64,000 nucleotides of DNA from Siphonodentalium dalli (lineage: Eukaryota; Mollusca; Scaphopoda; Gadilida; Siphonodentaliidae), in the NCBI GenBank assembly GCA_032622095.1, contig CP136069.1, positions 162,429,043 through 162,493,042 of the forward strand, written 5' to 3'. The translations under genes and the position numbers were made by a program. Below, piece by piece: positions 15,705 through 40,665 of the stretch; within the stretch, counting starts at the first letter, position 1, and each line of letters starts with the position of its first letter. A model generated the notes under the pieces. That model did not search any database and was not told where the DNA came from. It saw nothing but the letters and a program-made list of their open reading frames with translations.

Positions 15705-15893
15705 GGGTGCAGTCTGGTATAGTATCGGCGGGCTGCCAGTCAGAACTGCCACAAACGAAAGTCGCCATCGACGCAAGATTGATTGTGGCGATGTCGTAAC
15801 CAGACATACAAAGAGGTGTGCAGAACACGCCCCCGACCCATGTATCACATGCGACGGCCCCATTCCTCGGAGGAGCTAGTTCCGGGCATGTCG
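15705..15893 (-). CDS. Host HYR/CCP gene, exon 10: sushi-like module CCP-3b
   Basis: A 189-nt exon (phase 1-1) with acceptor TTTTTCAG at its 5' side and donor GTATGT. It encodes a four-cysteine-plus sushi-like module that starts TCPELAPPRNGAVAC, continues CDTWVGGVFC, then CMSGYDI, and closes ATFVCGSSDWQPADTIPDCT. The NGAVAC...GGxFC...C...GYD...W...PDC pattern resembles sushi modules of SVEP1/polydom-type proteins. It is the third module of the third HYR-CCP-CCP unit and the most 3' exon I can find. Joined to exon 9 it stays in frame (Ala at the junction). No stop codon is present, so the gene should continue past the window or past the LINE cluster. The exon has no in-frame start and had to be found by splice sites. 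Confidence 0.8.
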
Positions 15894-17521: not shown

Positions 17522-17740
17522 CAGGAGGAGAGCAATTTGGTTTCTCTTGTCCATCTGGCCACACCCACGATCCAGTTGATGAGAATTCCTGTCTATCACA
17601 TTTGATGACTTCAGAGCCAGTCAGTGAGTAAGCCCCCAAACAGGACATGTTGCAGCTGGTCCCGAAGATGGCGTCTGTGTGTGTGCAATTCATGTCCATG
17701 TAATCAATTGTTGAGAACTCTAATACGTTGCATGTCACAA
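17522..17740 (-). CDS. Host HYR/CCP gene, exon 9: sushi module CCP-3a
   Basis: A 219-nt exon (phase 1-1), acceptor TTTACAG, donor GTGGGT. It encodes VTCNVLEF, NCTHTDAIFGTSCNMSC, then a YSLTGSEVIKC strand and a final W and C (GSWVWPDGQEKPNCS). Four canonical sushi cysteines and the conserved W are present. The linker before the W is about eight residues longer than in CCP-1a and CCP-2a. The FGTSC block is shared with the other CCP-a modules, which makes it the third copy of the same module type. The junction to HYR-3 gives Val, as at the other two HYR/CCP-a junctions. Expected role: extracellular binding module stabilised by two disulfides. Confidence 0.88.
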
Positions 17741-19299
17741 CTGTAAATATACATATATATAATAGTCCTTTATTTCCTCAAATGTTGGAGATCAAGTATA
17801 AACATTCAAATGCAATACAAATCACAATACATGTTAAGCCTACATAGAATAATTATTATTGTGAATACGTATATAGGACAGAGTCACATATACCTTATTT
17901 CCGGTCTACCCTCACATACAATATGAATAGAGCAACATAGTTGGTTTGTTTGTTTTACAGAATTTGATATACACTATAACACTCCATCCTATAAATCAAT
18001 ATTGAAAGTTTCTAATACATGTATATTCAAGCCAAAATTACATTATGTTATATAGCATATTATATATAACACCTGGAAATATAAGCACACCAGATCTAAC
18101 TACTGTTCTATGAAAATGTGTATTAACATATTCATACGGTAAAATGCAGCTATATCAGCTGCACCATACAGTAGTAGTTTTTTGCGATTAATTTATAACA
18201 AAGATTTGATAATTATAATTATGTTGCCTTAACCCTTTCAGTGCCAGGTCCGATTCTTGTATCAACCCATATACCCTGTGCCAATGCATTATCTTATATA
18301 TGCGAGTCGACCATAGGTCGCCTCGCATATATAAGAGAATGCATTGGCCTAACAATTTTTCATCATTTGTTATTATTTTTTACAATTTTTACATTTTTAA
18401 TAATTTTTTCTTATATTCTTTAACAGACTTATTTTGTAGGTTTAGTGCCAGGGAATCTTACGTTTTTCATGGGCATCAAAATTATTACTATGAATACTCG
18501 GTGATAGTTTTGAGTTATAACATGCCCCTAAGGTTTTATCCAGTTTGTTTTTAAATTCGCTATAGCATGCTTAAGCATACCCCAAAACAATTCAACACAA
18601 TACAATCTAAAAAAAAACAAAAATTATTTTTTAATGTTTTTAGGGCCGATTTTACAGATCGTTAATTAACGGCCGATCAGATCGGCTCCTGGCAATGAAA
18701 GGGTTAAATGGAGTCAACGCATTTGAAGTGTGTTCATGCTAAATAACATCAGTTCTAAAAAACTATCATCAACACTTACATGAAAAATAGATTGCATGAC
18801 TGTTCGATCTTATTTTCATTATTATTAACTTTTCAATAATGGAATGTCGTATGTCTGTTACAGTGGAATTATCGACAGACGTCAAATTAGTCACCAAAGT
18901 TTAATAAAAACTTGACGGTCAACTTTGGAAAATGTCAAAGCATTGAAAAATATTCTAAAAATCATATTCAGACTGAAATATTTTAACTTACTACACGATT
19001 TGCGATATTTGTTGATAAATCACTGTTACTGTTTTATTTACATAACAACTGTATAAACATGCGAATTTAATTATCCGATAAAAATGTTTATCTATTTCTT
19101 CATGTTCTTCTTATTGGTGACATGTTTTATAGACTGTTTTATTTTTTTAATATTTACCCACTGCGAGTTCATTGGGTCCCTAATTAACTTTGCGTCAATA
19201 ACTTAATTAAATGGCATGATGTGATCATCTCATTAGTTTGTTCTAATATTCTGTGTGTAACTGTTTTAGAATAAACATATTAAAATAGCTTCAACAGAC
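17741..19299 (-). other. Intron 8 of the host gene
   Basis: 1.56-kb intron that contains the piggyBac-like MITE at 18233-18703. Nothing else recognisable is present. Confidence 0.75.
18233..18703. mobile_element. piggyBac-like MITE with TTAA target-site duplication
   Basis: A 471-bp element flanked by TTAA on both sides (18229-18232 and 18704-18707). The terminal inverted repeats start CCCTTTCAGTGCCAGG on the left and, read inward from the right, CCCTTTCATTGCCAGG, continuing into CCGATC. TTAA duplication with CCC-starting termini is the piggyBac signature. It has no transposase. An inner palindrome lies at about 18279-18350 (CCAATGCATT...CTCGCATATATAAG...AATGCATTGG). Confidence 0.85.
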
Positions 19300-19551
19300 C
19301 TTCAACACTTATTGTAAAAGTACATGGATTCCCAATGTTATCTGACAGATCTTTGACTGAGAACATAATCGAATAATCGCCATCCTGGACTATCGTTCCT
19401 ACTGCTGGTCCAAGCTCTTGTGAGATAGTGACACGTCCAGAGTTATCTCTGGCTGCCACTGGTAACCAGGCTAGTTCCACATATGTCTCGCCAGCTGCTG
19501 GGTATAGAGCTTGGTCAACAGGACATGAGGTAATCACAGGAGGTTCAATAT
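19300..19551 (-). CDS. Host HYR/CCP gene, exon 8: HYR module 3
   Basis: A 252-nt exon, phase 1-1, acceptor TTTGCAG, donor GTCTGT (a weak donor). It encodes one full HYR (hyalin repeat) domain in a single exon: IEPPVITSCPVDQ, TYVELAWLPVAARDNSGRV, DYSIMFSVKDLSDNIGN and PCTFTISVE. The HYR hallmarks A-x-DNSG and the final C-x-F-x-I-x-V are present, with the usual two cysteines. HYR is an immunoglobulin-like fold found in extracellular adhesion proteins such as hyalin, SVEP1 and SRPX. Exon 7 ends PCI and joins through Asp to IEPP, the same junction as at HYR-2. Confidence 0.92.
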
Positions 19552-21927
19552 CTGCAAATCAAGTCAATCAAATTAAGGGTTGCTTTATAACTCTAAACAC
19601 AAGGAGGATAATTAAATCTACGAATCAGATTCTGCATTATTTTGAACTCGCAAAAGGTATGTCATCAAGACATGTTTGCAAAGTGCTCAAAGATACAAAC
19701 ACAGAGAGCAGACCCATGCATACCCTGACGTAAATATTTGCCAACCTAACGGTATGAAGCTTGAAACTTACATTTGATACATCACGCTCCGGTGTTAGGG
19801 TGACAAAATATGTTGATAATTAGGTTGAAGATATTTATTCAGTATTTAAACGCCACCGGCAGAATTACTCAAGTCACATAATTTACAAATATCTTGATCC
19901 GTTTTCTACAGTTTGGAATAACATAACAGAGCGTCACTTAGCACCACATTCTTGAAATAGTAGACATGAAGATCGATTGTTCTACATATCTCATAGAAAT
20001 AGAAACAAAAAGTTGGAAAATGTCTATGATTTTGTCATGTATGATTTTTAGTGTATAAATAAAGCCTGTACGTCAGCATATCATGTATGTATCGATTATT
20101 CATTCCTTCCAAATAAATAAAACATTTAAATGACGCATGTCCGTTTAACACTTTCTTTAGTAACCAGTTATGAGGTATACAATTGAATCGTAAATATCGC
20201 GTATATTGCATGTTATTGTCACGTTTGTACCCTTGGTTATGTAACCAAACATCAAAAACGTTCCAAAACCGATTGTTTATAGATAAGCACTTGGAACTAC
20301 CGATACGATGAAAATGCCCCGTTGCGCTGTGGAATGATGCAAGCAACAATCGCATTCAAATCACACCAAATTTTATTTTAATCGACCCATTCTACCCACT
20401 GTCAGTTCAAAATCAAGCTAACCCACGTTACTTCGTGATTGGGAAATGATCAGACAGAAAACATGTACATAATATAATTGATCTTGCAAATACATGAATA
20501 TTTCTCAATTCTGAAAATGCCCCGTTGCGCTGTGGAATGATGCAAGCAACAATCGCATTCAAATCACACCAAATTTTATTTTAATCGACCCATTCTACCC
20601 ACTGTCAGTTCAAAATCAAGCTAACCCACGTTACTTCGTGATTGGGAAATGATCAGACAGAAAACATGTACATAATATAATTGATCTTGCAAATACATGA
20701 ATATTTCTCAATCCAGTTAGTATTTTCTCCTAACCTATATATGGTAATACATACCGAGTAAGGAATATTACTGAGTCGTATTGTGAGTTATAACTTGTAA
20801 GCGCACCAAATTAGGGATTTTATAACCGACGTATAACGCGTGAAAATCTAAATAAGGAAATGGCGCAATATCGTGACTGCTTATAAACAATCCACTGCGC
20901 AATTTGTGGGGAAACTAAATAGTCGACCTGCATTTTCATGAACACAAAGCATGTTTTGTGAATAATATCGGATTCATATCATCATTATGCTATACTATTA
21001 GTATAGTCTTGAGGAAATTATCGTAATTTGATCATGTTCTTTCTAAATTATAACCTACAACGAAGGTAGCCCGTCCCTTTAAAAAACTCTTTCAAAGATA
21101 AAACGCTCTTTAAAATGTGTTTTAAATATTTTTTTATTTCTGAATATCTCCACTATTTTGTCAATATAATTACCCCATACCCCCTTCGATTAAATCTGGA
21201 TACTCATAATGAAATACAATCCTAACATCACGTGGCACCTGCTAATCGTGAACCACAATTTGATATTGTTTTATGTATCACCCTTGGCATATTGGCTGGA
21301 AACAGATGATGCAAATGCGGAGAGCATCATATTCATTGTGGGGACATGTTCAGATAATAAGCTTAAACATCTGTGCCAATATGCTACACAAACACAACGA
21401 CGATCGGAACCTACGGACAGAATCTTCAATGTAGGGAGACAATCTCCATTACGTAGGGGCCACACGATATACACTGCTACCTATTGAGATACGTGACATG
21501 GTTGTAACGGATTAAGCGAACCGAGGCTGAGAACTAATGTGGCATGATGGCGAAGAAAGATTAGACGCATACGAAGGAGTATAGGTAGCTACCTGACCGA
21601 TTTATATACGGATTAGAGCGAGTAGATGTCGCCAAAAGATTATCATTGAAAGCTAATGCGGCGTGCTGACGAGAAGCGACGACCCGTAGACGAATTAGAA
21701 GATGACGTTCGCTTGACTGCGTCAGGAACACCCCATTCGATCAGCCAAGAAAAATGCCCCATGCACGGCACGTCAGGAAGGACTATAAAGAATCCCGGAT
21801 TTCCATAGCCAAATCAGTATGCTCTGAGACGTTCACCAGTTGATACCAGTACCCGTACGATTGACGCAGATATACCAAGAAGGACGTTAGCAGCAAGGTG
21901 GTCGGAAATATGAGGTAAGCAAAAAAG
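19552..21927 (-). other. Intron 7, 3' part (up to Gypsy D)
   Basis: AT-rich intron sequence. It contains the 203-bp tandem duplication at 20309-20714 and a CGCTCTTTAAAATGTG repeat near 21105 that recurs near 42095-42170. From about 21490 the base composition changes to a GACGA-rich purine style like that of the Gypsy D LTR, so 21490-21927 may belong to that element. Confidence 0.55.
20309..20714. repeat. Apparently exact 203-bp tandem duplication
   Basis: The block starting TGAAAATGCCCCGTTGCGCT at 20309 repeats at 20512. The two copies read identically through GAATATTTCTCAAT and diverge only after it. By eye I find no mismatch. It lies within intron 7. Confidence 0.85.
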
Positions 21928-22234
21928 CTTGTATTTCCGAACAACGCATCCCTGATGTACCAACGACGAAGCGCACTCGACGATAGCAGACGACAGGCCG
22001 ATGTACACAACTAGAGATCAACCACACAACATATGAAGACACGAGCAGCGCCCAATTCACACAGACGACAGGAAGACGCACTCAAATTATAAAGACACGA
22101 GAAGACCCCGATCCACGCATACGACAGGAAGGGGAACTCAACTAGGAGAAGCCATATCGACGACCCGAAGGTATTCTATTGAACTGTTTGTAATCATTTT
22201 AATGCCTGAACGTTATGTTCCCCATCTTGGCACG
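21928..22234 (+). repeat. Gypsy D 5' LTR
   Basis: About 305 bp matching 27256-27566. Shared landmarks are CTTGTATTTCCGAACAACG at the start, repeated GACGACAGG units in the middle and ATTTTAATG..TGAACGTTAT..CTTGGCAC at the end. The first shared base is the A of AAGCTTG; the true border may be TG two to four bases later. A TGGTGCATTGGTG stretch at about 22250 could be the primer-binding site. Confidence 0.75.
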
Positions 22235-22402
22235 TTTTCGTTTACTGGTGCATTGGTGAGCTATAATTTGAATGCTAAAACACAAGAGAACACAACGTGA
22301 AGGAAACGCAACGAGGACAGAGTAGCTAGACCCGGAAAGAACATTGTGAACAAGAAGTGTTGGACAATTCGCAAGACGTGAGTCTAACTGCTTATATTAA
22401 TA

Positions 22403-22986
22403 ATGGCTACCCACAGGCACATTAAGATATTAATTCATAAATCGTCGCATGGCTATGTCAGCGGTGACCCAAGTATGTCATCGGTGACCCAAGTAGTTAA
22501 GTCTTTCGATGTTAGCCACACACAGTATAATGAGTGGATTAAATCAATAGAGAAATGTGCAGTACTTACTGGCGCGACCAAGACCAAAAAACCTTATATG
22601 GCTTTCCAGAGTAGTATATGCGCAGTTTCAGATTTTCTACAAAGATATTTGGCCACGAATCAAAACGCTACATGGCAAGAAACAAAACTACTGAACTAGC
22701 TAATCGATTTGCAGAAGTACTTGATAGTCAACTCGCATTTTCGATGCTCAGGAAAATTAAACAGAAGCCCAACAAATACGTGCATGTGCTCGCTGAACGA
22801 ATTTTGGAAATGGCAGACATCGCGCATGTACACCAACCTGGTGGAATATATGCAGTTCAAGTTCAACTCGTGGGTTTTTATATTGACGCTTTAAAAAGTG
22901 ACAGCTTGAAAATGAAATTGATTAGAGATACCCCAAGAACGCTAAAATTGGCGGCCGAAACCGTGATGCGTGAAATGGGAATCTGA
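22403..22986 (+). pseudogene. Gypsy D gag remnant
   Basis: The reading frame from ATG at 22403 shifts near 22685 into a second frame ending at 22986. The second half shows the retrotransposon capsid pattern (LANRFAEVLDSQLAFSMLRK, then VHVLAERILEMAD, then VQLVGFYIDALKSDSLK). The last block is matched in element E by MQLVGYFVDGLYNDSLR. It would have formed the particle shell. Zinc knuckles follow at about 23165-23290, split by a frameshift: CWTCQGK...HLARDC and CWVCEGNHLAGNC. The second has one residue fewer than the usual CX2CX4HX4C. Confidence 0.75.
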
Positions 22987-23499
22987 CGTGTTTTAACCTC
23001 AGGACAGGTCGCGAAAATTACAATGACCTGGAACCATTGGAAGTCGGGCATTTTCGAAACAAACCACAAAAACATCCTGTTAAATATGTGGCCGCGTTAA
23101 TCACCGTTCACGCCCGCGGCATGTACATATGGAGGAAGTCACTAACCCCCAACGAGGGATCGAATGTTGGACTTGTCAGGGAAAATCATTTGGCCCGAGA
23201 TTGTCCCTTTAAGACAGAAAACCAAAGGCACATATCTTGCTGGGTTTGTGAAGGTAATCATTTGGCTGGAAATTGCCCCTCTAAAACTGGAAGCCAAAGC
23301 AATAGGTAATGGAACCCATGAGTGAAACCATCCCAAGGAAACCGCCGGAACCAACCAAAACGGTCACGTGACCCATCCCATAATGGACCTCACCACAGCC
23401 GGAAATATCCGACAGCCAACAAGCCACCACAACTGATGACCCTACCCACATACCCACAATAGTAGAACGTCCTCTCATTGAGACCACAAATGAGAGGAA

Positions 23500-24290
23500 T
23501 TTCACCATAAATATCGTAGGTAGCCCAGCTCATGTTTGGTTAGAATATGTAAAAATAGATATCGTTCATTAGTGGATAGTGACGCAGAGGTATCAATTGA
23601 TTCACAAACGTGTATGTGATGCATTACCGTTTCGACCAAAACTAACTAGGGAACACATTAACCTCAGCTCAGTAAATGGAAAAACATTAGGTGCAATGGT
23701 AGCATTTAACTAACTTTCAGAATGGCCAAAATAAAATTGACTCAAAAGTTTTATGTAGTAAATGATATGACCCGGAATATGATCTTAGGGAGGGATTGGC
23801 TGACCTATCGGGGGGTCAGACTGTATTATGATCTAAATGTCTCAAGGTCAGTCTTGTGTATGTGCCCTTGGAAGAGGACACACATATAGCTTCTCTTTTG
23901 AGATTGGCTCACAAGGTTAGCTTAAAAACACAAACTTCAACCTTATGTATGGGAAAATCAAAACAGTTAGCTGCACTTCATAAATCAACGTTAGTAGAAG
24001 TGGCCCAAATCGAAAAAGGTTACCTGGCATCAGAGCCCTGTCTGACATAAAGTCCCGGTGCTACTTATCAATAACACTAATAAAAATGTTCATCTACGAC
24101 GCGGCAGTGTAGTGGGGAAATCAGTCATATACAAACCAGACACTAATCTTCAAGTCAACTCTTTAACACAGGGATCTCAATTCCCAGTGGCCAGCAATTA
24201 TCCCAATAATGGCTACGCCCGTAGGCACCCCAATTATAATCAGGCAGACAATTCAAAATCAGCGCCCTCTACAGTACAGTAGAGAAACAA
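23500..24290 (+). pseudogene. Gypsy D protease and connector remnant
   Basis: A retropepsin-like segment near 23545-23600 reads RSLVDSDAEVSID in one frame. The catalytic D-T/S-G has become D-S-D, so it is inactive. Downstream, 23856-24282 holds short frames. The one at 24058 (INNTNKNVHLRRGSVVGK) matches a block in element E just before its RT (INQTDRHYNLKRGCVVGK), which confirms the element's gene order. Confidence 0.6.
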
Positions 24291-24389
24291 TAGAATTTTA
24301 CTGAAGTTTCATGCCCAGATCAATATCTAGAGGCACTGTTGACATTGTTGAAATGCAACTCAGACATCTTTGCTGAAATGGACACCGAG

Positions 24390-25640
24390 CTGACTCAAAC
24401 CAGCACAGTTAAAATGCACATTGACACATGAAATCGTCCCCCAATAAAACATTCGTCCATATCGCACCCCCTTAAATAAACGACAGCTGGTCGACACTGC
24501 CATAAATGATATTCTCGAAACTGACAATATCAGGCCAATTTCCAGCCCTTGGTCTTCCCTGATCATGCTGGTCGATAAGAAGGACGGCACAAAATGGTTT
24601 TGTACCGACTTTAGGTAGCTTAATTCCATAACCCGGCCATGTCATATCCACTTCCGGTCATCGACGATATTTTGGCACTTAAATGTTTTACTGCTCTTGA
24701 TTTTAAATCTGGATATTGGCAGTGCCAGGTCGCAGAGGACAAACAAAAGACAGCTTTCGCATGCCACCGAGGACTCTTCGAATTCAATTCTATTCCATTC
24801 GGGCTCCGAAATGCTGGCGGTGTTTTCTCGCAGCTTATGGCCCAAGTGTTATGTGGAATGGGTGATTATGCAATTGCGTATTTAGACGGTATTTTGATAC
24901 ACAGTGAGAACCTAGAATTACATTTGGAACATATACAAAAAGTGTTTGAAACAGTAAACGCAATATTTAGGTTTCATGATACCAATGGTGTCCGACATGA
25001 CAAGGTCAACGCCATTCGATATCTTGCACCCAAACTTCAGTCAAGGAGGTGCGTTCCTTCATTTGCATGAGTAACTACTATCGTAGATTTGTCCCCTCCT
25101 TTTCACAGATTGCCGAACCTCTGGTACAACATACAAAACATATGCTAAATTCAAATGGGACCACGCTTGCCAAAGTTCAAACTAAAGGAAGAACTGACAG
25201 CAGTAACCCTCCTCGCCTATCCAAATACAGCAATGCCCTATACGTTGTATACCGATGCAAGTGACTTCTGCATGGGCGCCTGCCTGACCCAGTTAGGTGA
25301 AGATGCTATCGGAGAACCGATCTATTATCTCTCACACAAACTGGCGATACTCATACCCGATGACCAACTGTTGAAACAGAGGCATATGCAATTCTCTTTG
25401 CATTGCAAAGGCTGGACCATTACCTCCATAATGCCACTTTTACAATAAAAACAGACCATAAACCATTAAAACATATCCTGGAATCCCCCATGCAGAACAA
25501 GAAAATCCAACAGTGGGCTTTGGGCATTGCTGGATATAACTGCAACATTCAATACATAGCAGGCACAGATAATCACTGCAAAGACATGCTCAGTCGAACA
25601 CCCCCTAATGCATATACAGAACAGGAAAAGGCAGAAGTAG
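24390..25640 (+). pseudogene. Gypsy D reverse transcriptase and RNase H remnant
   Basis: RT is split over frames. It includes YPLPVIDDILALKCFTALDF (about 24645), SGYWQC, PFGLRNAG (about 24795), and IAYLDGILIHSENLELHLEH near 24875. The catalytic box Y-x-D-D reads YLDG, so the second Asp is lost. The connection (SNYYRRFVPSFSQIAEPL) is at 25070. RNase H starts LYTDASDFCMGACL near 25245 and continues TIKTDHKPLKHILESP and YIAGTDNHCKDMLSR near 25440-25595. At least three frameshifts separate these pieces. Confidence 0.85.
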
Positions 25641-25649
25641 ATCGCCGAA

Positions 25650-27123
25650 ACACAGGCAGAGGTGGCCGCTTTAAATTCATCTAACTTTCAACCCAAAGAT
25701 GTTGCCAGATGCGAGGTAACTCACAAGGAGCTGCCGAGTAAAAATCAAATTAGCAAGGCCTACCAGCCTACTGATCTCCTGTTCAATAAGCCCAACTTCA
25801 ATATGCTTGAGGAACAACAGAGAGACCCGGAAATTGCGTCAGTTCTGGATGCCCTCAACAAAGGAGAGGACACCCGGAATGACAAACACTTGATGATTGT
25901 TGGGGTACTGTACTACCTCTCAAGTGCTCATGCAGAACCGACCCCACGCCTTTGGTACCCACACATCTCCAAACCAACGTAATCCAACAATACCATGAGA
26001 ACAATGGCCATTTTGGAATAGACAAGACACATGATGCAATTAAATCCAAATATTATTGGCCCAGACTGTACAAGGAACTCAACTGCTACGTTAGCAAATG
26101 CGTGACTTGCCAAGTCAGGTCTCTGCAGAAACAGTCCCCTAAAATGCAAACAACAGATACAGCCACTTAGCCTTTCGCTAAGATTGGTTTAGATCTATCG
26201 GGCCCCTACACCTCTTTATCGGGTAATCGTTATATTATCAGCTTCGTAGATTTATACAGTGGATGGGCGGTGGTATTTCCGGTCAAGAACAAATCAGCAG
26301 AGAACATTGTTCATCTCTTGTTCGATGAAATCTTTCTGCGACATAGTTGCCCCCTATAGTAGTCATTGACAATGGCAGTGAGACCTTCAATTACAAGGTC
26401 AGGGACACATTGAAGGCTTTAAACATTCATCACGTGACTACTTCATAATATCATCCCAGAGCAACGCTAGGGTGGAGAGATTCCACAGCGCCCTTCATGA
26501 CCTACTGACAAAGAAAACCAGCGGACCAGCTGAATACATGGGACGTCCATTTAAATCAAACACTAGCTGCAATCCGGTTTAACAAAAATGAATCTGCAAA
26601 ATTTTCCCCATTTTACTTATTATACAACCGGGACGTCGTGTTCCCAATATATAATCTCCTGAAACCAAGGCGCAAATGGGCTGTGGAAGACTATCATCAA
26701 ATAGCATTACAACAACATAAATCATTTATGCTGGTACACAAACACATGAAGCAGGCTAAACGCCAACAAGCAGCGAAATTTGACCAAAATGCCAAGGACA
26801 TCAAATTCGAAATTGGTGAGGCCGTCTATGTTAAGAATCACTTACGAAAGAGCAAACTGGAAAGTAAATGGAAACCCTACTTCCGCATAACCAAACAAAT
26901 AACGCCCGTTACTTTCGAGTTAAGGAATCAACTAACTTGGAAGGTCACACAATTCCATATACATATGCGCAAGGCCTACCTTGAATGGGAAATCCCCAAG
27001 ACTGATACCAACAAACGTGCACAAACGTGTGTTATACCCCCGGAAGATGAAGATAGCGACGTCCCTGCCCCTATGTGGGTGGATCTTCTGGCGAATTCGG
27101 AGACAATGTTCAGACTCCGATGA
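25650..27123 (+). pseudogene. Gypsy D integrase remnant
   Basis: The integrase zinc-binding region (HENNGHFGIDKTHDAIK, YYWPRLYKELN, CVTCQVRS) lies at about 25995-26120. The core follows in shifted frames: IGLDLSGPY (first Asp, about 26190), VVIDNGSE (second Asp, about 26362) and NARVERFHS (Glu, about 26465). All three catalytic acids can still be found, but in different frames and with stops between. A long C-terminal extension (26638-27123) with a basic first half and an acidic PPEDEDSDV end completes pol. Confidence 0.8.
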
Positions 27124-27255
27124 TGAAGATATCCCTTTAAGCGAGCTTAAGTTGCGCTTACAGCGTCGAAAAGCGCGACTTATGCACTTCGGATCATTAC
27201 AAAAACATGACTCGTCCACGGAAAAGGAATCCGGGCCGATTGCGGAAGCACCAAG

Positions 27256-27566
27256 CTTGTATTTCCGAACAACGTATCCCTGATGTACCAACGACGAAGC
27301 GCAGCCGACGACAACAGACGACAGGCCGATATACACAACTAGATATCAACCACTCAACCTATGAAGACACGAGCAGCCCCCGATTCACGCGGACGACAGG
27401 AAGACTCACTCAACTTATGAAGCCACGAGAAGACCCCGATCCACGCAGACGACAGGAAGACGAACCCAACTAGCAGAAGCCATACCGACGACCAATTGAA
27501 CTGTTTGTAAATAAATTATCAAATCATTTTAATGTCTGAACGTTATATATCCCCCGTCTTGGCACA
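27256..27566 (+). repeat. Gypsy D 3' LTR
   Basis: About 310 bp homologous to 21928-22234, differing by many substitutions and indels (for example an extra ATAAATTATCAA segment near 27510). It starts 132 bp after the pol stop and ends 130 bp from host exon 7. Confidence 0.75.
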
Positions 27567-27695
27567 CATGACATGACATAGACTAACAATTCCTGAGAAC
27601 ACTGCTCGTCAATAAGTATCAAGTAAAGAAAGGATTACTGGGAAAGTCCATTTTGGTCTAAATCAATCATTCAATCAAATGGTGAAACATCTTAC

Positions 27696-27884
27696 CGATG
27701 CACGGTATTGTGGAAAGTGTCCAGGTTCCAGAGCTGCGGCATATCAGCGTGGACGATTGACTCGCCAAGAACCCGGCATCACAGCTGGCAAAGCAGGAAC
27801 TCTCGTACCGGAATCCATCGATGCAGTTAGCTTCGCTGTAACTTCCATTCGGAGACAGACTAATGGGCGATGGACACGAAATCT
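27696..27884 (-). CDS. Host HYR/CCP gene, exon 7: sushi module CCP-2b
   Basis: A 189-nt exon, phase 1-1, acceptor TTTTGCAG, donor GTAAGA. It encodes ISCPSPISLSPNGSYSEANC, then GFRYESSCFASCDAGFLAS, and closes TLICRSSGTWTLSTIPCI. The pattern has NGxY, C-x3-C, the GF turn, GTW and the final PC, that is, the sushi fold with an extra cysteine pair. It matches CCP-1b (exon 4) in the shared 'Y-x-S-x-C-x3-CDxG' block, so it is the second copy of the b-type module. Gypsy D ends only 130 bp downstream of its donor, so the insertion narrowly missed the exon. Confidence 0.9.
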
Positions 27885-29293
27885 CTGCAAAATTAATAAA
27901 ATTGCGATCATACCCTAGTGTTTCAATCAAAGTTAGAGAAACTAAATCGGTATTAAACATTTCATCGTAAAAAAAAAATCTACTCTCCAGAGGGATCGTG
28001 CGTCAATGGTGGGACTGTAGAAAGACTGACCTTAATTCATAGCATGTTTAGTTACATTAAGGACGCTCTTTAAAATAACTGTTCATATTTATTCTTATTG
28101 AATAGGTCAGGGCTGTAAACCCCAGGTTACGTCATAATTAGCTCGAAAATGGCGGCAAGATCTCTCACATCAAAGCGAGTATTCATCGTTTTCGTCACCT
28201 ATATAAATAACTCAACTAAAAAAGATAGCAAAAGAGAGATGTATAAATTGTTTCTAGCTAAATGTGAATCCTGTCGCCATATAAATATGACTCTTGAGAA
28301 ACTTTCGGGGTTCAAATGACTACGCCACTATTTTTCGAAGTTGTGAAATGAATGTGAACGCCACAATCTCCTGATAACAACAAACCTGTTCGATGTCTGT
28401 TCTTGGAAACAAGTGCATCACCGGGACGTGGCAAAATACGCCCGTGGTAATTCCAACAAAGGGCCATAACTCTGGTGAACATCGGCGGGCATACCCCAAA
28501 TGCGAACTTGATTCTATTTTGGGCTAGTAAACTGACATACCAAATTTCATTCCATTCAGTTCAGATTTACTAAAGTTATCATCCGGAATCGAAAATATTT
28601 AGTGCAAATTCCAACAAAATGGGCAATAACTCTGGTAAAAATTGGCGGGGTGAACCCAAATTCGAACTCGACGTGTATTTGGGCTAGTAAACTTTCATTC
28701 CATTCAATTCAGACTTATTGAAGTTGTCATCTGGAAACGAACAAACGAACGGACAGATGGACAGACCAATAACATAATACGTTCCGTTCTTTAAAAACGG
28801 GCGTATAAAAACTAATGTTGAAATTGCCAGGTGAGTGAACTTCCAGTTATTTTCGAGCAAATTATGACTTGGTTCCTATCACTGTGTGTGGATGTATCAA
28901 TATTGGGTCTTCGTGGTGCCTATGTGCTAGGAATGTTGTTACATAATTTGTATTTTTTTTGTATATTTACCTGGTGAGTGATCATTTTGCTTGATGATAT
29001 TCACGCTTACTTTCAGTGTTAAGTTGCAACATATTTGTTGTCAAATAATTATGTACTGGAATTTTGATTTGGGCAATGTTGGAAATTCATCCATAATCAC
29101 ACAATATTTCATTTCACAATTAAAGACCAAAATATGTTCTTGGGTGTATTATTGCATATAGATGGGCACTCTAAAACTAATTAATTTATTTCGATAGATG
29201 CCTTGTCTCTTAGCATCCGTAAGCTCCTCCCACTAATTAATAGTTGTGGAAACTTACATTGATCGGATTGTTGCTTGTGTTAACTAAACTTAC
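27885..29293 (-). other. Intron 6 of the host gene
   Basis: 1.4-kb intron holding the dispersed GGGCCATAACTCTG repeat pair at 28425-28795. No gene. Confidence 0.75.
28425..28795 (+). repeat. Dispersed repeat, two tandem units
   Basis: Unit 1 (about 28447-28600) and unit 2 (about 28605-28760) share AATTCCAACAAA, GGGC(C)AATAACTCTGGT, CGAACT(T/C)GA, TTTGGGCTAGTAAACT and TTTCATTCCATTCA. The block ends with ACGAACGGACAGATGGACAG and AACGGGCGTATAAAAACTAATG. From memory I associate this style of repeat with lophotrochozoan genomes. I cannot name its class. Confidence 0.6.
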
Positions 29294-29473
29294 TCTCACA
29301 CGACGGTATCGTAGCATTGTATGACCCGTTTTGCAGACAACTGATTGTATCCTGTCCATCGACCATGTAGCCTGCGTCACACGTGAACTGACAACTTGTT
29401 CCAAAAATTATGTCGGTATTCTCGCATGAATGGCGACCATCTGGGATTGAGATTGAGGACCGGCATGTCACCA
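29294..29473 (-). CDS. Host HYR/CCP gene, exon 6: sushi module CCP-2a
   Basis: A 180-nt exon, phase 1-1, acceptor TCTTTTCAG, donor GTAAGT. It encodes VTCRSSISIPDGRHSC, ENTDIIFGTSCQFTC, AGYMVDGQDTISCLQNGSY and IPSCE. All four sushi cysteines are in place. Where a Trp is usual, this module has Tyr (GSYNATIP), as CCP-1a does (GGYSPTIP). The FGTSC block marks it as the same module type as exons 3 and 9. The joins are Val to HYR-2 and Lys to CCP-2b, both in frame. Confidence 0.92.
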
Positions 29474-30421
29474 CTGAAAAGAGAAGCAGATTTAATGGAC
29501 CTTTCCACAGCTGTCAATCAAATAATTATTAGCAGATATTTTCAACCAATCAGCGACTGAGCCGGTCAATGGCTGCATTGAAAATTCTGCTGCCATCTTT
29601 CTTCGCCCTAATTTTGATATCCGTTCATACATTCAGTGTTAATTTGGCTTCATTCAAACAACTTTTTTGTTATCAAATCATATATAATATACTGAGATTT
29701 ATAGTTGCGCCATGATGTTATAAATTTATCTGTGATTATAACAACGTTTTTTGTTTAGCATGACACTTTGTCATAATTTTCACATTTAATGGCAAAACGA
29801 ATGTGTGTTCTCTTGTCTATATATTAAAGGTACTAAATTACTATTTCTTTGGCTTCGGGGGAAAAAATATTTTATTCGAGTCGAGGAACCTACCCATCAC
29901 AGCTCAGAGTGCATGATCAGATACCGATTTCTGAAGTTTGTCATTTCAATTCTTTGTGGACCAGAAACACGTGGTCAAACGGACGGTCTTGTAGATAAAG
30001 ATGGATAACTCTAAAATCAAGTGGTAATAATAACGGGAGCTATCGAATTTGAATGTTTTAGACCAATAATATTGACACGGGCTGCCATCTTTTATTTTGT
30101 ATCATTAATTACTTTGGCGCCCGCTACAACCAAAAACATTAATTAGATTGGTCCTAAATTTAATATGCATATTCGTGTTATTTAATTTATATGCGATTTA
30201 TCAAATACTGATAAAAACTAGGAACTACTTGTTTATAGTGCGCAAGAATAATACGCTGGACTGTTGTTTTAATTTTGCACATGATTGCATGTGACGTCAA
30301 GTCAGTTCATTCATGATTTCGAACAGTCAAGGACATCACGGGAAATCGACCTTATATCAATATTACATGTTCAAAATTGTATTGCTTAATTACCTATACC
30401 ACGGGGGGTCGCACAAAAGTT

Positions 30422-30810
30422 TTATCATACAGTGCCGGGGTGGGTGGGTCCGAAGAGGCCCGAAAACAATGAGTTTGTGCAAAAATAATTCTATTCACAT
30501 GTTTTCCCTTGTTTTAAGTTGTTTTCAAATATATTCATTAATAATTGTGTTCTAATGAAGGTTATGGCCTTTACAGACACTTAGGAACAGGGTAGGTATA
30601 AGATATAAGTAATACAGGGGAGAACTTCCAAAAACATACCTATACCGGGCGGGGTGGGTGTATTTCAGAGGCCTGAAAAAAATTGTTTGTGCAAATGTTT
30701 TTCAACCCACATTATGGACATTGTTTTAAGTTGTTTTCACTAATAAATGTGTTCTAACATAGATTATGCCCTTAACCAACACTTAAGAACATATGTAGGT
30801 ATAAGATAAA
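30422..30810. repeat. Direct duplication of a GGGTGGG/AGGCCCGAAAAC unit
   Basis: Copy 1 at about 30422-30610 and copy 2 at about 30643-30810 share CCGGG(G)TGGGTG, AGAGGCC(C/T)GAAAA, TTTGTGCAAA, TTGTTTTAAGTTGTTTTCA, GTGTTCTAA and GTAGGTATAAGATA. The G-rich head resembles the GGGTGGGTCC/CGAGGCCCGAAAAC material at 39.07-39.49 kb and 40.5 kb. Confidence 0.7.
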
Positions 30811-30812
30811 GC

Positions 30813-31027
30813 ACTCTCTGGTGCCAAATAAAAGTGATGACTAAATAGGAGTGCTGGTTTGCATTTAACCTCAAATTAATATTGAATAGTGCCTGATAGT
30901 GCTGGCATTTTCACTCTGGCATGTTTAGTGACCAAATAATACTAGTGCTTCAGAGTGCTGGCTAACAAAATACCACAAATTAAAAAATAAACATGCCAGC
31001 CTGTTTATTTGGCTCCAAAGAGTGATA
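30813..31027. mobile_element. Short foldback/MITE candidate
   Basis: Imperfect terminal inverted repeats: CACTCTCTGGTGCCAAATAA at the left and, read from the right, CACTCTTTGGAGCCAAATAA. The interior repeats AGTGCTGG/CCAGC and GTGCT words. No coding capacity. Confidence 0.6.
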
Positions 31028-31600
31028 CTTATATACTATATAACTGTCATTGCAGGTATGGCTATAAGGTGTTCTGATACGATGGTTGGTGGCACCTTTT
31101 TGGGAACAACAGTGAAGAAGTCATTAATTAGTAACTGGACTATTTAAGTAAAAATTAAACGGCTATGTACCGGAACAGCACCTATTCGTGTCACGATCAT
31201 TTGCACCCTAGACGCGTGAATATATAGTTCCAATATGGCAATACTAGCATATATTAGCATATATTATCATAACATTAACAAAAAGGAAGTGGAAACTAGT
31301 ATCTAGTGCTCTTCACAACATTAAATACAAATAGGTCAAAGCTTGTTATGAGTACAACATCGAGCAGTGCGTAAAACTACAACACGTGAACGATGTTATA
31401 ACATGTTAATTGCTTTGTTGTCAATAGACTTAATTTATGTTGGTGAACACTTCGTGGTATGCCTACATGCAAACGATGCACTGATGAATATCGTTAACTA
31501 ATCATAAAGGCCAATTGTACACATGAACTGTGAACTAATCACACCAAAACTTGTTATACATGCATGTGTATATGGCGACTGTACGTGAGCTTGAATGGAA

Positions 31601-33131
31601 TTCAGTTTAGCTTTTCTAAATTCCGGATTATAAACAGAATATGTTTTAGAAATGCACGGAATTCCATAAAAGGTAATCTTCAGAAAAGCTAAAATTGTGT
31701 GAATAGCCGAGCATTATATATAACTCGATCATAGCATTACAGCTTTTCTAAAATGGCACACCTTTATAACAAGGCATTCATTGATAGCACACGCAGGGTT
31801 AAACATGGGATGTTAGAAAAGCCAATGTGTGTAAAATAACACTCTTTTAACTATCCACTTTTTAAATTCAGTTTAGCTTTTCTAAATTCCGGATTATAAA
31901 CAGAATATATTTTTAGGAATGCACGGAATTCCATAAAAGGTAATCTTCAGAAAAGCTGAAATTGTTTGAATAGCCGAGCATTACATATAACTCGATCATA
32001 GCATTACAGCTTTTCTAAAAAGGCACGCCTTTATAACAAGGTATTTCATTGATAGCACACGCAGGGTTAAACAGGGGATTTTAGAAAAGCCAATGTGTGT
32101 AAAATAACACTCTTTTAACTATCCACTTTTTAAATTCAGTTTAGCTTTTCTAAATTCCGGATTATAAACAGAATATGTTTTTAGGAATGCACGGAATTCC
32201 ATAAAAGGTAATCTTCAGAAAAGCTAAAATTGTGCGAATAGGCGAGCATTATATATAACTCGATCATAGCATTACAGCTTTTCTAAAAAGGCACGCCTTT
32301 ATAACAAGGCATTCATTGATAGCACACGCAGGGTTAACCAGGGGATGTTAGAAAAGCCAATGTGTGTAAAATAACACTCTTTTAACTATCCACTTTTTAA
32401 ATTCAATTTAGCTTTTCTAAATTCCGGATTATAAACATAATATGTTTTTAGGAATGCACGGAATTCCATAAAAGGTAATCTTCAGAAAAGCTAAAATTGT
32501 GTGAATAGCCGAGCATTATATATAACTCGATCATAGCATTACAGCTTTTCTAAAAAGGCACGCCTTTATAACAAGGCATTCATTGATAGCACACGCAGGG
32601 TTAAACAGGGGATGTTAGAAAAGCCAATGTGCGTAAAATAACACTCTTTTAACTATCCACTTTTTAAATTCAATTTAGCTTTTATAAATTCCGGATTATA
32701 AACATAATATGTTTTTAGGAATGCACGGAATTCCATAAAAGGTAATCTTCAGAAAAGCTAAAATTGTGTGAATAGCCGAGCATTATATATAACTCGATCA
32801 TAGCATTACAGCTTTTCTAAAAAGGCACGCCTTTATAACAAGGCATTCATTGATAGCACACGCAGGGTTAACCAGGGGATGTTAGAAAAGACAATGTGTG
32901 TAAAATAACACTATTTTAACTATCCACTTTTTAAATTCAATTTAGCTTTTCTAAATTCCGGATTATAAACATAATATGTTTTTAGGAATGCACGGAATTC
33001 CATAAAAGGTAATCTTCAGAAAAGCTAAAATTGTGTGAATAGCGGAGCATTATATATAACTCGATCATAGCATTACAGCTTTTCTAAAAATGCACGCCTT
33101 TATAACAAGGCATTCATTGATAGCACACGCA
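31601..33131. repeat. 267-bp satellite, 5.7 tandem copies
   Basis: Copies start at 31601, 31867, 32135, 32402, 32669 and 32936 (spacing 266, 268, 267, 267, 267), each beginning TTCAGTTTAGCTTTTCTAAA or TTCAATTTAGCTTT(T/A)TA. The last copy stops near 33131 inside TAGCACACGCA. Each monomer has four alternating copies of the AGCTTTTCTAA word: forward, reverse (AGAAAAGCT), forward, reverse (TTAGAAAAGC). The two halves match each other in those words and in an (A/T)TGTGTG segment just after the reverse word, so 267 bp is probably an old dimer of a ~133-bp unit with short inverted ends. Confidence 0.9.
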
Positions 33132-33243
33132 TGTTTATAAAAAATAGGATGCGAGCTTCTTCACCTAGTTATTAAATATCTCTATATATTTTCCTTATAC
33201 ACATGAAACCAAGCATTAATTCATAATACACGAACTGTCAACT

Positions 33244-33880
33244 AGGGTGGGGGGGTAACATTATAGGAATTCTCGCTCATCACCTAATTATGTGATATGT
33301 TTGTCTTTACGTATAACCCCCTAAAATATCCAAGCCCCTGTTACGATATCTCACCCCAAAAAAACCCTTTACTCGGCAGGATTTAGGGTTGTTTTTTATT
33401 AATTATTTATATATATATATACTACCGGATCAGAACCTATTTTTTGGTTAAAAGTATGGCAATTAGGTGCTGTTACATCATTTCGATTGATTTAGGATAT
33501 ACATACAGCATATACATTGGCAATATTGTTATCCCGTCGCTATATATATACTACCGGAACACATATTTTCTGGTTAAAAGTATGGCAAATAGGTGCGGTT
33601 ACATCATTTAGATTTATTTAAGATATACATAGGGTGGGGGTAGCAGAATAGGAATTCTCGCTCATCACCTAATTATGTGATATGTTTGTCTTTACGTATA
33701 ACCCCCTAAAATATCCAAGCCCCTGTTACGATATCTCACCCCAAAAAAAACCCTTTACTCGGCAGGATTTAGGGTTGTTTTTTATTAATTATTTATATAT
33801 ATATACTACCGGATCAGAACCTATTTTTTGGTTAAAAGTATGGCAAATAGGTGATGTTACATCATTTAGATTGATTTAAG
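33244..33880. repeat. Tandem duplication of a ~386-bp segment
   Basis: AGGGTGGGGG...GGAATTCTCGCTCATCACC at 33244 recurs at 33630 and continues with near-identical sequence through CCAAGCCCCTGTTACGATAT and GGATTTAGGGTTG to the degraded hairpin ACTACCGGATCAG. The segment therefore includes one hairpin-type repeat per copy. Confidence 0.8.
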
Positions 33881-34363
33881 ATATACATACAGCATATACA
33901 TTGACAATATTTATATCCCGTCGCTCTATATATACTACCGGAACAGCACCTATTTTCTGGTTAAAAGTATGGGAAATAGGTGCTGTTCCGGTAGTATATA
34001 TAGAGCGAACGGATAGATATACTGTCTATATATGCTGCAAATGACTTTTAATTCAAGATAAATGATGTAAATAATAGCAATAAACTCACTATATCGACGT
34101 CCTTGGCTATATATATACTACCGGAACAGCACCTATTTTCTGGTTAAAAGTATGGGAAATAGGTGCTGTTCCGGTAGTATATATAGAGCGAAAGGATGGA
34201 TATACTGTCTATATATGCTGCAAATGACTTTTAATTCAAGATAAATGATGTAAATAATAGCAATAAACTCACTATATCGACGTCCTTCGCTATATATATA
34301 TACTACCGGAACAGCACCTATTTTCTGGTTAAAAGAATGGGAAATAGGTGCTGTTCCGGTAGT
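33421..34363. repeat. Array of ACTACCGGAACAGCACC hairpins
   Basis: Six hairpin units start at 33421, 33550, 33805, 33934, 34117 and 34302. The last three are intact 62-bp palindromes (33934-33995, 34117-34178, 34302-34363) at spacings of 183 and 185 bp. In the first of these the full arms are 33921-33955 and 33974-34008, 35 bp each and perfectly complementary, with an 18-nt loop (TCTGGTTAAAAGTATGGG). The first three units have lost the closing CCGGTAGT, replaced by ACATCATTT. Spacers between the last three carry GATATACTGTCTATATATG and GACTTTTAATTCAA. Confidence 0.9.
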
Positions 34364-34665
34364 ATATATATAGCGAAAGGATAGATATACTGTATATATA
34401 TGACTTTTAATTCAATATAAATTATGTTAATAATAGCAATAAAGTCACTATTTCGACGTCCTTCGCTATATATATACTATGCATGGCGTATCACGTGACA
34501 AAACAAACTTGACCCAGAAAGAACATTGCAGCATCAAAATGTTATTACAATCTTCATCATGCTTACTAGTTACTACACATGTAATCGAGATGACGATGTA
34601 TATGAATATAAACACAATGGCATGTGATATATGGTAATTGATTTCAATATTATGTATTCCCATTT

Positions 34666-34941
34666 GTATTCATGTGGACAGCATCAATCCAATCGGTAAA
34701 CGTGTTGTTTAGGTCACGTGGTACCAACATTTTAGCAGAACATCATGTTTTCCACCGAAATATAAACTTCCAGAACGCATCCTAATTCCCATACTTTTAA
34801 CCGTAAAATAGGATGTGTTCCGGTAGTATATATATACGACAGCAAACTGTTTTTCTGCTAAAATAACACCACCTGTTGGTGTCACGTGACCTACAAAACA
34901 CACTTTTACCGATTCAAAATGTGTTGTGCGCATGAATACAC
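34666..34941. repeat. Large inverted repeat with CACGTG cores around a degraded hairpin
   Basis: Left arm 34666-34742 (GTATTCATGTGGACA, AATCGGTAAACGTGTTG, GGTCACGTGGTACC, TTTTAGCAGAAC). The right arm 34854-34941 is its reverse complement with some changes (TTCTGCTAAAA, TGTCACGTGACC, TTTTACCGATT, CATGAATAC). At the centre (about 34770-34830) sits a diverged ACTACCGG hairpin (ACTTCCAGAACGCATCCTAA against AGGATGTGTTCCGGTAGT). A further single arm of the ACTACCGG sequence is at about 34953-34973. Confidence 0.8.
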
Positions 34942-35449
34942 ACGAAAGGTCATAGGTGCTGTTCCGGTAGTATGCCAATTAAACACAATGTTGGCTTATT
35001 GGCACTATAAATATTACCTCACAATATATGTGCATACTGTAGAATAAAAAACTTTTTATTTCAAAATGTATTTTTCAATGTCGAAAACAACATCATAACC
35101 GTTGATAGTTTTTCAATTGTTTGAACACTTGGAATCTGCCAGAAACGGACCAATTTAAAACTTACCTTTGATTCTGTTTGATTTGGTCTTGAATAGATTT
35201 AAAATGATTTGTTTTCTTATTTTAGGGGTTGGGTCCAAAAAAATCAGGCGGAAAAAAATAAAAACATTTCACAAAAAGGGTGGATGGGTAGCAAAGGGGC
35301 TGTAAACAAATTTTGGGACCCTGTATGTGTAAATTTTCACACGACCCCCCGTATACCATATAATATATAGTACATCAAAATAAGCAACACAGTTTAAACA
35401 AGTCATATTGATATAAGATTGAAGTTTCATCTTATGGTAAGCTAAGTAC

Positions 35450-35704
35450 CTTCAACCTCTATGGAGAAGATACAGGGAGATGCTTTGTTGCCGCTTCCGT
35501 CAGTGGCGTCATACTGTACACCGTAGGTTCCGTCAGCCACCAAAGTGTTCTTCAGAGGACCGTATACCTGAGTGACCTCAACATACCCGGAATTGTCACT
35601 GGCAGTCAAATCAACCCATGTGACCTCGGCGCGGTTTTGTCCAGACGGCGCAGTGATCGTTATTGTAACCGAATAGCAGTTGTCAAAGACAGGCGGAGTT
35701 GTAT
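35450..35704 (-). CDS. Host HYR/CCP gene, exon 5: HYR module 2
   Basis: A 255-nt exon, phase 1-1, acceptor AATTCCAG, donor GTACTT. It has no methionine near its start and so does not show as a conventional ORF. Translation gives TTPPVFDNCYSV, AEVTWVDLTASDNSGYVEVT, GTYGVQYDATDGSGNKASPC and IFSIEVE: a complete and well-conserved HYR domain, closer to the family consensus than the other two copies here. Cysteine positions match HYR-3. It opens the second HYR-CCP-CCP unit and joins in frame to exon 4 (SCI, Asp) and exon 6 (VE, Val). Confidence 0.93.
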
Positions 35705-36095
35705 CTGGAATTTAGATTACAGAATAATACAATTTTGTAAATCTCAAAAATCTGGACGCAATGGTATATACGAAGAAATATAAATAGTATCTTATTATGA
35801 AAACAAATTCATGACTAGTCACTAAGTAAATGAATCATGGTATAATGTACAATCGACCTCAATATGTATCAAATTTTTGTAAATAAATGTCAAACCCACA
35901 CAAAAGTCTTGCAAATATTACATAAATAACTCAATCGGACGTTAATCACTATAATACTGTCAAATACTAGAAAGTATAAGTATTTTTTTTTTATCTTGTA
36001 AATTTGAATGATACACCGGGAGACAGATCAGCCTTAGCAGCAATCACTCGTGCTCCAGTTTTATAATTTATCCACCGCTGACTACCTCTGGTACC

Positions 36096-38789: not shown

Positions 38790-40665
38790 TGGACTTAAGG
38801 GTAAATATTTGCACTTAAGTCCAAATAGTGAATTGCGCTTAAGCCCAAATACCACATAATTGTGAATTCGGCGAGGAATTGTACTTAAGTGCAAATGAAT
38901 TACACTTAAGTATAAATACTGATATTTTCGTCTATTTGTACTAAAGTTGTGTGGTATTTGCACTTAAGTAAAATTCATTTGCAATTAAGTGCAATTGAAC
39001 TGTATAAGAAACACCTCATCAGAGATTAAGTGCAAATATTTAAGTACATTTATTTGCTCTTAAGCAGGGGGTCGGAAAACATTTCCAGGCACGTATTATC
39101 ATTTTTATGTTTTCGGGCCTCGGGGGACCCAACCACCCAATTTCTTCCGTTTCCGGCAGGGGGGGTCGGAAAATAATTTCCAGGCACGTATGATGGGGTG
39201 GAGTGGGTGTCTCTCGGGTCCGAAAAGCAGTTTTTTTCCATGGGGGTGGGTGTCCAAAACTGACCGGAAAAAATTTCCGGAAATGGAAAAAAAGCCGAAA
39301 AGGCCGAAAACGGAAGAAATTGGGTGGATGGGTCCCCCGAGGCCCGAAAACATAAAAGTTATCATACGTGCCTCGAAATTTTTTCCGACCCCCCCCCCTA
39401 TTTCCGGCTTTTTTACAGGCAATTTTGGACACCCACCCCTTTTTTTTCCATTTCATAATTTTTTCCGGTCAGTTTTGGACACCCACCCCCCTTAATTTGA
39501 GAAAATTATCGATTGACCAACCAAATAGCTGATTATCCCTGATTATCATAGTTTATTGCGCGAGATTTTAATAGAACAGTGCATAATGAAGATAACGATA
39601 CTATTTGAATTTATCATATAAGTGTCATTAATCAAGAAATATGTCAACATAATCACATTTCTAGGGATAGGCAGAGTGCCAAAGTTTTTATTAAAATATT
39701 TATTTTATTTATTCATTTTCATAATATATAGTCACATGATCTTGTCACATAATCACATTTGAGTATTCTACAGACTACATGGTACAACACATTTCAGATT
39801 ATTTGATATTTTGATATTTGCTATGTGATATATTGCTTGAACCAAATTGTTTATCAAAACATGTGGAAATACAACTATTCATCCCAGTTCATCCCAGTTT
39901 GAAGAATAATGCTAATACCAAACATAACCATGATATACCAATGGCAGGCTGGTAGCCACTGCCTGAAGTAATAGGCTTCGTAATAATTGGGAATAACATA
40001 CGGATGGATAGCCCAATCTCACTTCTTTTTTTGCTCACTATATCAGTGACGATAAAATCTTTGTTACTGTGATTAACATTGCAAGGTGATCCACATTAAC
40101 TTGGAAAACAATTTGAAATTGTTCAAGCTGGCCCGGCTGCCCTTCAATTTATATGTTAAGATGTTATGTTTTACGTTGTCAAAAGTCTATTTTATTCAAT
40201 TATTTATTACATCCTTATTTCCATGTCCCATATGGTCAAGTGTGCTTTCATTTTATCGCTTATTTTCAGCTGAGTTCTGCATAGTTATTCTTATTTTGTT
40301 GTATCAGTAGATGGAACCCTGATTAAATTTTATTTTTCCAATAGCGCAGTTTCTTGTTCTATCAAGTTGAATTTGGGTTATTGTTGGCCATTGTGCAACT
40401 GATCCAACTTCTGGTAACCTCTATATATAGTATAGCATTGCTATTAACTATATATGACCTGTTTCTGTCCAAAACACATCAAAATAAGACTCAATAGCAG
40501 AAATGAATAAAAAATGTGGCACATGGAAAAAACTGCTTTTCGGACCAGAGTGACACCCACCCACCCCATCATACGTGCCTGAAAATTTTGTCCGACCCCC
40601 CCCCCCCCCCCCGTATTAAGTGCAAATATGTTCAATAATTACACTTAAGTGCAAATGCTAAACAG
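38790..40665. repeat. Array of ATTTGCACTTAAGTGCAAAT palindromes
   Basis: Between 38795 and 39062 there are about ten degenerate copies of the 20-bp palindrome ATTTGCACTTAAGTGCAAAT or its half sites. Two more copies lie beyond an intervening block at about 40614-40662. The array therefore seems to have been one tract interrupted at a TTAAG by the G-rich inverted-repeat block 39066-40612. Confidence 0.65.
39066..40612. mobile_element. G-rich inverted-repeat block inserted at TTAA
   Basis: The left end is CTTAAGCAGGGGGTCGGAAA and the right end CCGACCCC...CCGTATTAAGTGC, with TTAA on both sides. About 80 bp near the left end (39160-39241: GGTCGGAAAATAATTTCCAG through GATGGGGTGG to AAAAGCAGTTTTTTTCCATG) recurs inverted at 40526-40612. 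A second, inner inverted pair has arms of about 90 bp at 39067-39156 and 39304-39395 (TTTTCGGGCCTCGGGGGACC and its complement). Overlapping reading frames here are just low-complexity translation. A ~1-kb AT-rich interior (39.5-40.5 kb) holds no gene. Confidence 0.6.

Follow-up and report, generated by a model that had tools for sequence, protein, structure and literature searches.

Elements with inverted ends and internal repeats

Mutator and Foldback transposons are flanked by target site duplications (TSDs) of about 8-11 bp. Several other groups of DNA elements combine inverted ends with internal repeats. Merlin elements have 5'-GG ends, an 8-bp TSD and terminal inverted repeats (TIRs) of 24-462 bp, and several Merlin families contain internal tandem repeats (excerpts of PMC8101967). 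Tetris, a foldback element of Drosophila virilis, has TSDs of 8-10 bp and satellite-like repeats related to the end of its TIR (excerpts of PMC4079207). Galileo, a foldback-like element of the P superfamily, has internal repeats with extra motifs, to which the THAP domain of its transposase was shown to bind (excerpts of PMC3688188). The Helentron-associated elements of the oyster (Cg_HINEs) are described, in the available part of PMC7492417, as having TT insertion sites and no TSD, and HINEs as having an inverted repeat of 7-12 bp located 1-12 bp from the 5' subTIR.

The stretch of DNA analyzed here (64,000 nucleotides, referred to as the window) contains a row of long hairpins. The best explanation, with a probability of roughly 0.7, is that the row forms a block of tandem repeats inside a non-autonomous, cut-and-paste DNA transposon of 3.8 kb that has TIRs and is moved in trans. 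The transposase acting on it would be encoded outside the window. The hairpin row is probably an unusual-looking case of an element type already known and not a new system. The locus has the features of a non-autonomous TIR transposon, namely TIRs, a flanking TSD and no transposase gene.

The element resembles Merlin in having GGC at both ends (a 5'-GG start), an 8-bp TSD in its one copy (8 or 9 bp in Merlin), a TIR of ~25 bp that falls within the range of 24-462 bp, and internal tandem repeats. In one Merlin family the repeat region is duplicated in opposite orientation (PMC8101967, in excerpt). Unlike Merlin, the element is without a DDE_Tnp_IS1595 transposase (no frame of at least 110 aa; 0 of 10 translated pieces with a Pfam match). 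Hairpins made from the TIR tip are a feature of this element that is absent from the Merlin description as excerpted (PMC8101967), and the likeness to Merlin is one of description. The 5'-GG start and the 8-bp TSD fit either Merlin or Mutator. Since the element contains no transposase, it is not filed as Merlin and its superfamily is left unassigned.

As far as the excerpted accounts go, the other systems are similar in part. The element is like Tetris in being non-autonomous, in its 8-bp TSD and in its satellite-like internal repeats, part of which is shared with the end of the TIR. However, the repeats of Tetris sit in long TIRs on both sides, whereas the TIRs of this element are ~25 bp long and its arrays are internal and asymmetric. 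With respect to Mutator/Foldback elements, the 8-bp TSD agrees, and the element lacks their long TIRs with internal repeats at each end. Like Galileo, the element has internal repeats with extra motifs; unlike Galileo, it is known from sequence alone and has no transposase. The Cg_HINEs are also from an invertebrate genome and also have short inverted repeats around satellite-like arrays, but the element differs from them in its 8-bp direct repeats and in having no 7-12 bp inverted repeat beside its left motif.

Anatomy of the hairpin array

An exact-arm scan of the window (arms of at least 20 bp, loop up to ~60, no more than 100 bases from the centre) returned four inverted repeats, the longest three of which are the hairpins HP1, HP2 and HP3. 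The array and its neighbors are composed of the following features.

33243-33987, plus strand: duplicated block (33243-33600 and 33630-33987, 94% identical) that contains older half-hairpin units
33412-33874, plus strand: three older units, HP0a (centre ~33453), HP0b (~33579) and HP0c (~33837), each limited to an imperfect inner stem
33921-34008, plus strand: HP1, 35-bp perfect arms (33921-33955 and 33974-34008) around an 18-nt loop; extended dyad 33857-34070
34110-34185, plus strand: HP2, 29-bp perfect arms, 18-nt loop
34293-34372, plus strand: HP3, 31-bp perfect arms, 18-nt loop with one substitution
34767-34826, minus strand: HPinv, a diverged hairpin unit in inverted orientation; three neighboring stem pairs altered on both arms; extended dyad 34665-34940

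HP1, HP2 and HP3 form a 183-bp tandem array of three units, the first two of which differ at 4 of 183 positions. Their 62-bp palindromic cores (33934-33995, 34117-34178 and 34302-34363) are spaced by 183 and 185 bp; the cores of HP1 and HP2 are the same and that of HP3 deviates by one loop base. Each hairpin reads as two head-to-head copies of the terminal tip ATACTACCGGAACAGCACCTAT across the 18-nt loop. Folding was computed for HP1, where the DNA (33927-34002) reached -29.6 kcal/mol against a shuffle mean of -4.8 and the minus-strand RNA (33921-34008) reached -59.7 against a shuffle mean of -13.4; none of 200 shuffles was as good in either case.

Coordinates and alignment agree with an earlier note on this DNA, which had described three nearly identical 62-bp palindromes 183-185 bp apart, one of them (HP1) with 35-bp perfect arms and an 18-nt loop. 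The note had also stated that three units upstream lost one side of the stem. The outer 3' half of the stem is indeed absent from HP0a, HP0b and HP0c, which keep an imperfect inner stem, but a loss as such does not follow, and these units may be ancestral rather than decayed. HPinv and two single copies of the motif (31161-31185 and 34952-34976) add to the features listed in that note. The fourth-longest inverted repeat of the exact-arm scan lies at 1872-1953 and has 26-bp exact arms with a 30-nt spacer.

Ends of the putative enclosing element

A mismatch-tolerant scan for the motif located more copies at 31166 (plus strand), 34806 (minus) and 34950 (minus), together with weak matches that have 6 mismatches. 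The outermost copies on the left and right are inverted with respect to each other and delimit the putative element.

31153-31160, plus strand: left 8-bp direct repeat AATTAAAC, putative TSD
31161-34976, no strand assigned: whole putative non-autonomous TIR element, 3,816 bp, with a TIR pair and an 8-bp direct repeat; non-coding
31161-31185, plus strand: left TIR GGCTATGTACCGGAACAGCACCTAT, 21/25 identical to the reversed right end, 18 contiguous
31599-33131, plus strand: internal array of 5.7 tandem copies of a 267-bp unit, 97% matches
34952-34976, minus strand: right TIR (reversed: GGCATACTACCGGAACAGCACCTAT)
34977-34984, plus strand: right 8-bp direct repeat AATTAAAC, putative TSD

The agreement between the TIRs extends to GGC, which is outside the motif repeated in the array, and the identical 8-bp direct repeats abut both TIRs exactly. 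A 2-bp TA TSD with the TIR CCGGAACAGC was the first candidate for the ends. It was dropped because the likeness of the TIRs runs outward to GGC, where the 8-bp repeat starts.

Two controls address the direct repeat at this pair of ends. When the right flank was slid through the window, an 8-bp match occurred at 47 of 58,941 positions (0.08%), and random pairs of window positions with looser offsets reached 8 bp in 363 of 200,000 cases (0.18%). When 142 inverted 12-mer pairs were scanned blind, 4 had a repeat of at least 8 bp, compared with 18 matches over five control shifts (~3.6 per shift). After removal of the 64 pairs that touch the array, 2 of the remaining 78 had such a repeat versus 0.5 per shift, and the element is one of the two. 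Taken alone, the blind scan gives little support for the element. The 8-bp TSD is well supported for the focal pair, a single copy, and falls short of proof. The window holds one copy of the element, and its left end is a single copy of the motif that could be a stray repeat.

From left to right, the element consists of a unique stretch, the 267-bp array, the duplicated block with the older units, the 183-bp hairpin units, HPinv and the right end. No likeness of the two ends was found beyond ~25 bp (p 0.53). The left stretch (31186-31598) showed nothing above shuffles when compared with the right end, with itself reversed or with the 267-bp unit, and neither did the 267-bp unit when set against the remainder of the element. 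The 267-bp unit contains pieces that look inverted to each other, AGCTTTTCT and AGAAAAGCT. None of the 37 stop-to-stop frames of at least 110 aa in the window overlaps the element. Ten translated pieces, whole or nearly so and one of them just outside the element, were taken from the 34 frames of at least 35 aa that overlap 31100-35050; none had a Pfam match at E 0.1. The window has no Rfam match and no tRNA.

Origin of the hairpins

For each of the seven hairpin centers, the sequence to the left of the core was compared with the reversed sequence to its right, using 200 shuffles. In this form of the test HP1, HP2, HP3 and HPinv were above all 200 shuffles while HP0a, HP0b and HP0c were not. 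The test was repeated with 500 shuffles on six centers (HP0b left out) and with neighboring hairpins kept out. HP1 and HPinv were then equalled by 0 of 500 shuffles each, with dyads of ~214 bp (33857-34070) and ~276 bp (34665-34940), respectively. The remaining centers were at shuffle level (HP2 98/500, HP3 240/500, HP0a 117/500 and HP0c 303/500). HP2 and HP3 were therefore rejected as separate extended dyads, as their flanks in the first test ran into adjacent hairpins. On its right side HP1 is flanked by a reverse copy, now diverged, of the spacer on its left, and the dyad of HPinv carries a spacer different from that of HP1. The fold-back reading rests on HP1 and HPinv because HP2 and HP3 are not above shuffles once their neighbors are excluded.

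Fold-back template switching followed by tandem duplication would account for this pattern. An internal copy of the tip may have given rise to a direct unit of ~129 bp with a short inner stem. At HP1 the inner stem would then have primed fold-back template switching, so that a reverse copy was made of the spacer upstream and of the tip's outer half. Such a step would turn a half-hairpin into the long palindrome with its dyad at 33857-34070, and a similar event would have produced HPinv. The 183-bp unit of HP1 would subsequently have been duplicated in tandem to yield HP2 and HP3, so that matching left flanks are not needed for these two. The same type of switching may occasionally re-match the arms to each other. 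This one insertion suggests how a transposon end might become a palindromic satellite, by way of a tip copy, fold-back and tandem amplification. If other copies confirm it, this path would help to explain where the internal satellites of non-autonomous elements come from and why these elements hold clusters of long palindromes.

Possible maintenance of the stems

In HP1 the inner arms match at 35/35 positions and the outer arms at 46/63 (4 gap columns; Fisher test, 0.0004). HPinv shows no such contrast, with 18/22 inner and 78/96 outer matches (28 gap columns; Fisher test, 1.0), which speaks against homogenization there. The corresponding values for HP2 (30/31 inner, 37/50 outer) and HP3 (31/31 inner, 39/50 outer) carry no weight, as their outer flanks are not established as homologous arms. 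In an alignment of the seven units (six distinct rows), three adjacent pairs have changed on both sides, all in HPinv. This number was reached by 13 of 500 shuffles and by none of the slid structures. Being adjacent and in one unit, the three co-changes are possibly a single event. Divergence among HP1, HP2 and HP3 does not differ significantly between stem and spacer (Fisher tests, 0.30, 0.10 and 0.10).

Template switching between the arms of inverted repeats has been reported to homogenize the arms (excerpts of PMC8604942). Maintenance of the stems is possible, and a need for the tip as a transposon end would explain kept stems just as simply. A bolder proposal is that head-to-head TIR tips stay paired through repeated template switching at the hairpin. 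The outcome would be a self-renewing cluster of end-like sites (extra binding sites for the transposase or decoy ends) from which a palindromic satellite would also arise. This proposal is regarded as quite unlikely.

Alternative explanations

The array could instead be a free-standing local satellite, in which a palindrome seeded a tandem repeat and the outer motif copies are strays with no single element enclosing them. The array is indeed a plain 183-bp tandem repeat, and the blind TSD scan is weak on its own. Moreover, the good motif copies (no more than 3 mismatches of 22, plus three half-arms with 6 mismatches) all lie within 3.8 kb, except for one 6-mismatch match at 47740. A stray origin of the outer copies does not sit well with their inverted arrangement, with the GGC that both share beyond the repeated motif or with the identical 8-bp direct repeats that abut them, and the local satellite is judged unlikely. 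A Helentron-associated element, which in Crassostrea gigas has a satellite-like core enclosed by sub-terminal inverted repeats, would also place tandem repeats between short inverted repeats, and there are TA repeats beside the internal motif copies. The right motif is followed by a 7-bp stem (TGCCAAT/ATTGGCA, 34973-34979 and 34998-35004), but this was equalled in 214 of 1000 shuffles. On the left, the longest exact complement of the motif within 31186-31240 is 5 bp, at 31227, which is 41 bases away. The 8-bp direct repeat is also unlike Cg_HINEs, and a Helentron-associated origin is hardly probable.

The stems might also have been retained by selection as RNA or cruciform structures, for example as a source of small RNAs or as an intronic hairpin. 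The very stable fold of HP1, the changes on both arms of HPinv and the better preservation of the inner than the outer arms of HP1 would fit such a role. However, HP1-HP3 are tandem duplicates, the motif doubles as the TIR tip and may be retained for that, HPinv lacks the contrast between inner and outer arms, and the window is without an Rfam match. Selected hairpins are considered very unlikely. The earlier note had offered selection for a cruciform or RNA hairpin as one source of the conserved stems, and this is not borne out, given that stem and spacer divergence do not differ significantly and tandem duplication alone explains the likeness of the units. Its other suggestion, that the stems derive from a transposon end, gains support, as the stem motif is the tip of apparent TIRs that enclose the array and are flanked by an apparent 8-bp TSD. 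Strictly defined, a foldback element has long repetitive TIRs at each end, which does not apply to the element here, whose ends match over ~25 bp only.

Searches outside the window

Exact pattern scans of IMG/VR gave 11 stretches for a 16-mer and 2 for an 18-mer, with no match for the loop pattern or for a 25-mer of the 267-bp unit. A 19-mer matched 4 stretches in GTDB, all in Sphingorhabdus, Erythrobacter or Sphingomonadaceae records. Judged roughly from the length of the patterns and the size of the collections, the matches in both collections are near chance and look like chance. When the element was compared with 16 matching loci by blastn, the similarity consisted of the motif and at most 8 further bases among the matches listed. 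A 26-bp match in one viral contig (L016) lies inside a 580-aa open frame and was taken as chance. A text search of the literature (main texts) with 13-mers of the motif returned a single, apparently unrelated paper and none on such an element. The TIR of the element was set against the literature only, and a family with the same TIR may possibly have been described already.

Host context

The element lies among open frames on the minus strand, several of which match HYR or Sushi domains.

17439-17777, minus strand: Sushi match, sub-threshold (E 0.0014)
19283-19558, minus strand: HYR frame (E 2.8e-8)
27670-28002, minus strand: Sushi-domain frame (E 4.4e-7)
35445-35711, minus strand: open frame with a HYR domain (E 4.5e-13), next to the element and probably a host exon

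A fifth frame (15652-15906) has no domain match. The minus-strand frames in 17439-35711 point to a single large HYR/Sushi gene whose introns are filled with repeats. Since the HYR frame at 35445-35711 and the Sushi frame at 27670-28002 are on either side of it, the element is probably located inside an intron of this gene. The host is taken to be an animal-like eukaryote. Ten other frames of the window were scanned, of which three match reverse transcriptase and one matches retrotransposon gag. Elsewhere in the window, a 203-bp tandem duplication at 20309-20712 has 100% matches and represents either a recent event or an assembly artefact. The region 39067-40602 contains several inverted repeats (for example 39067-39157 and 39303-39393, 92%) and may be a palindromic element.
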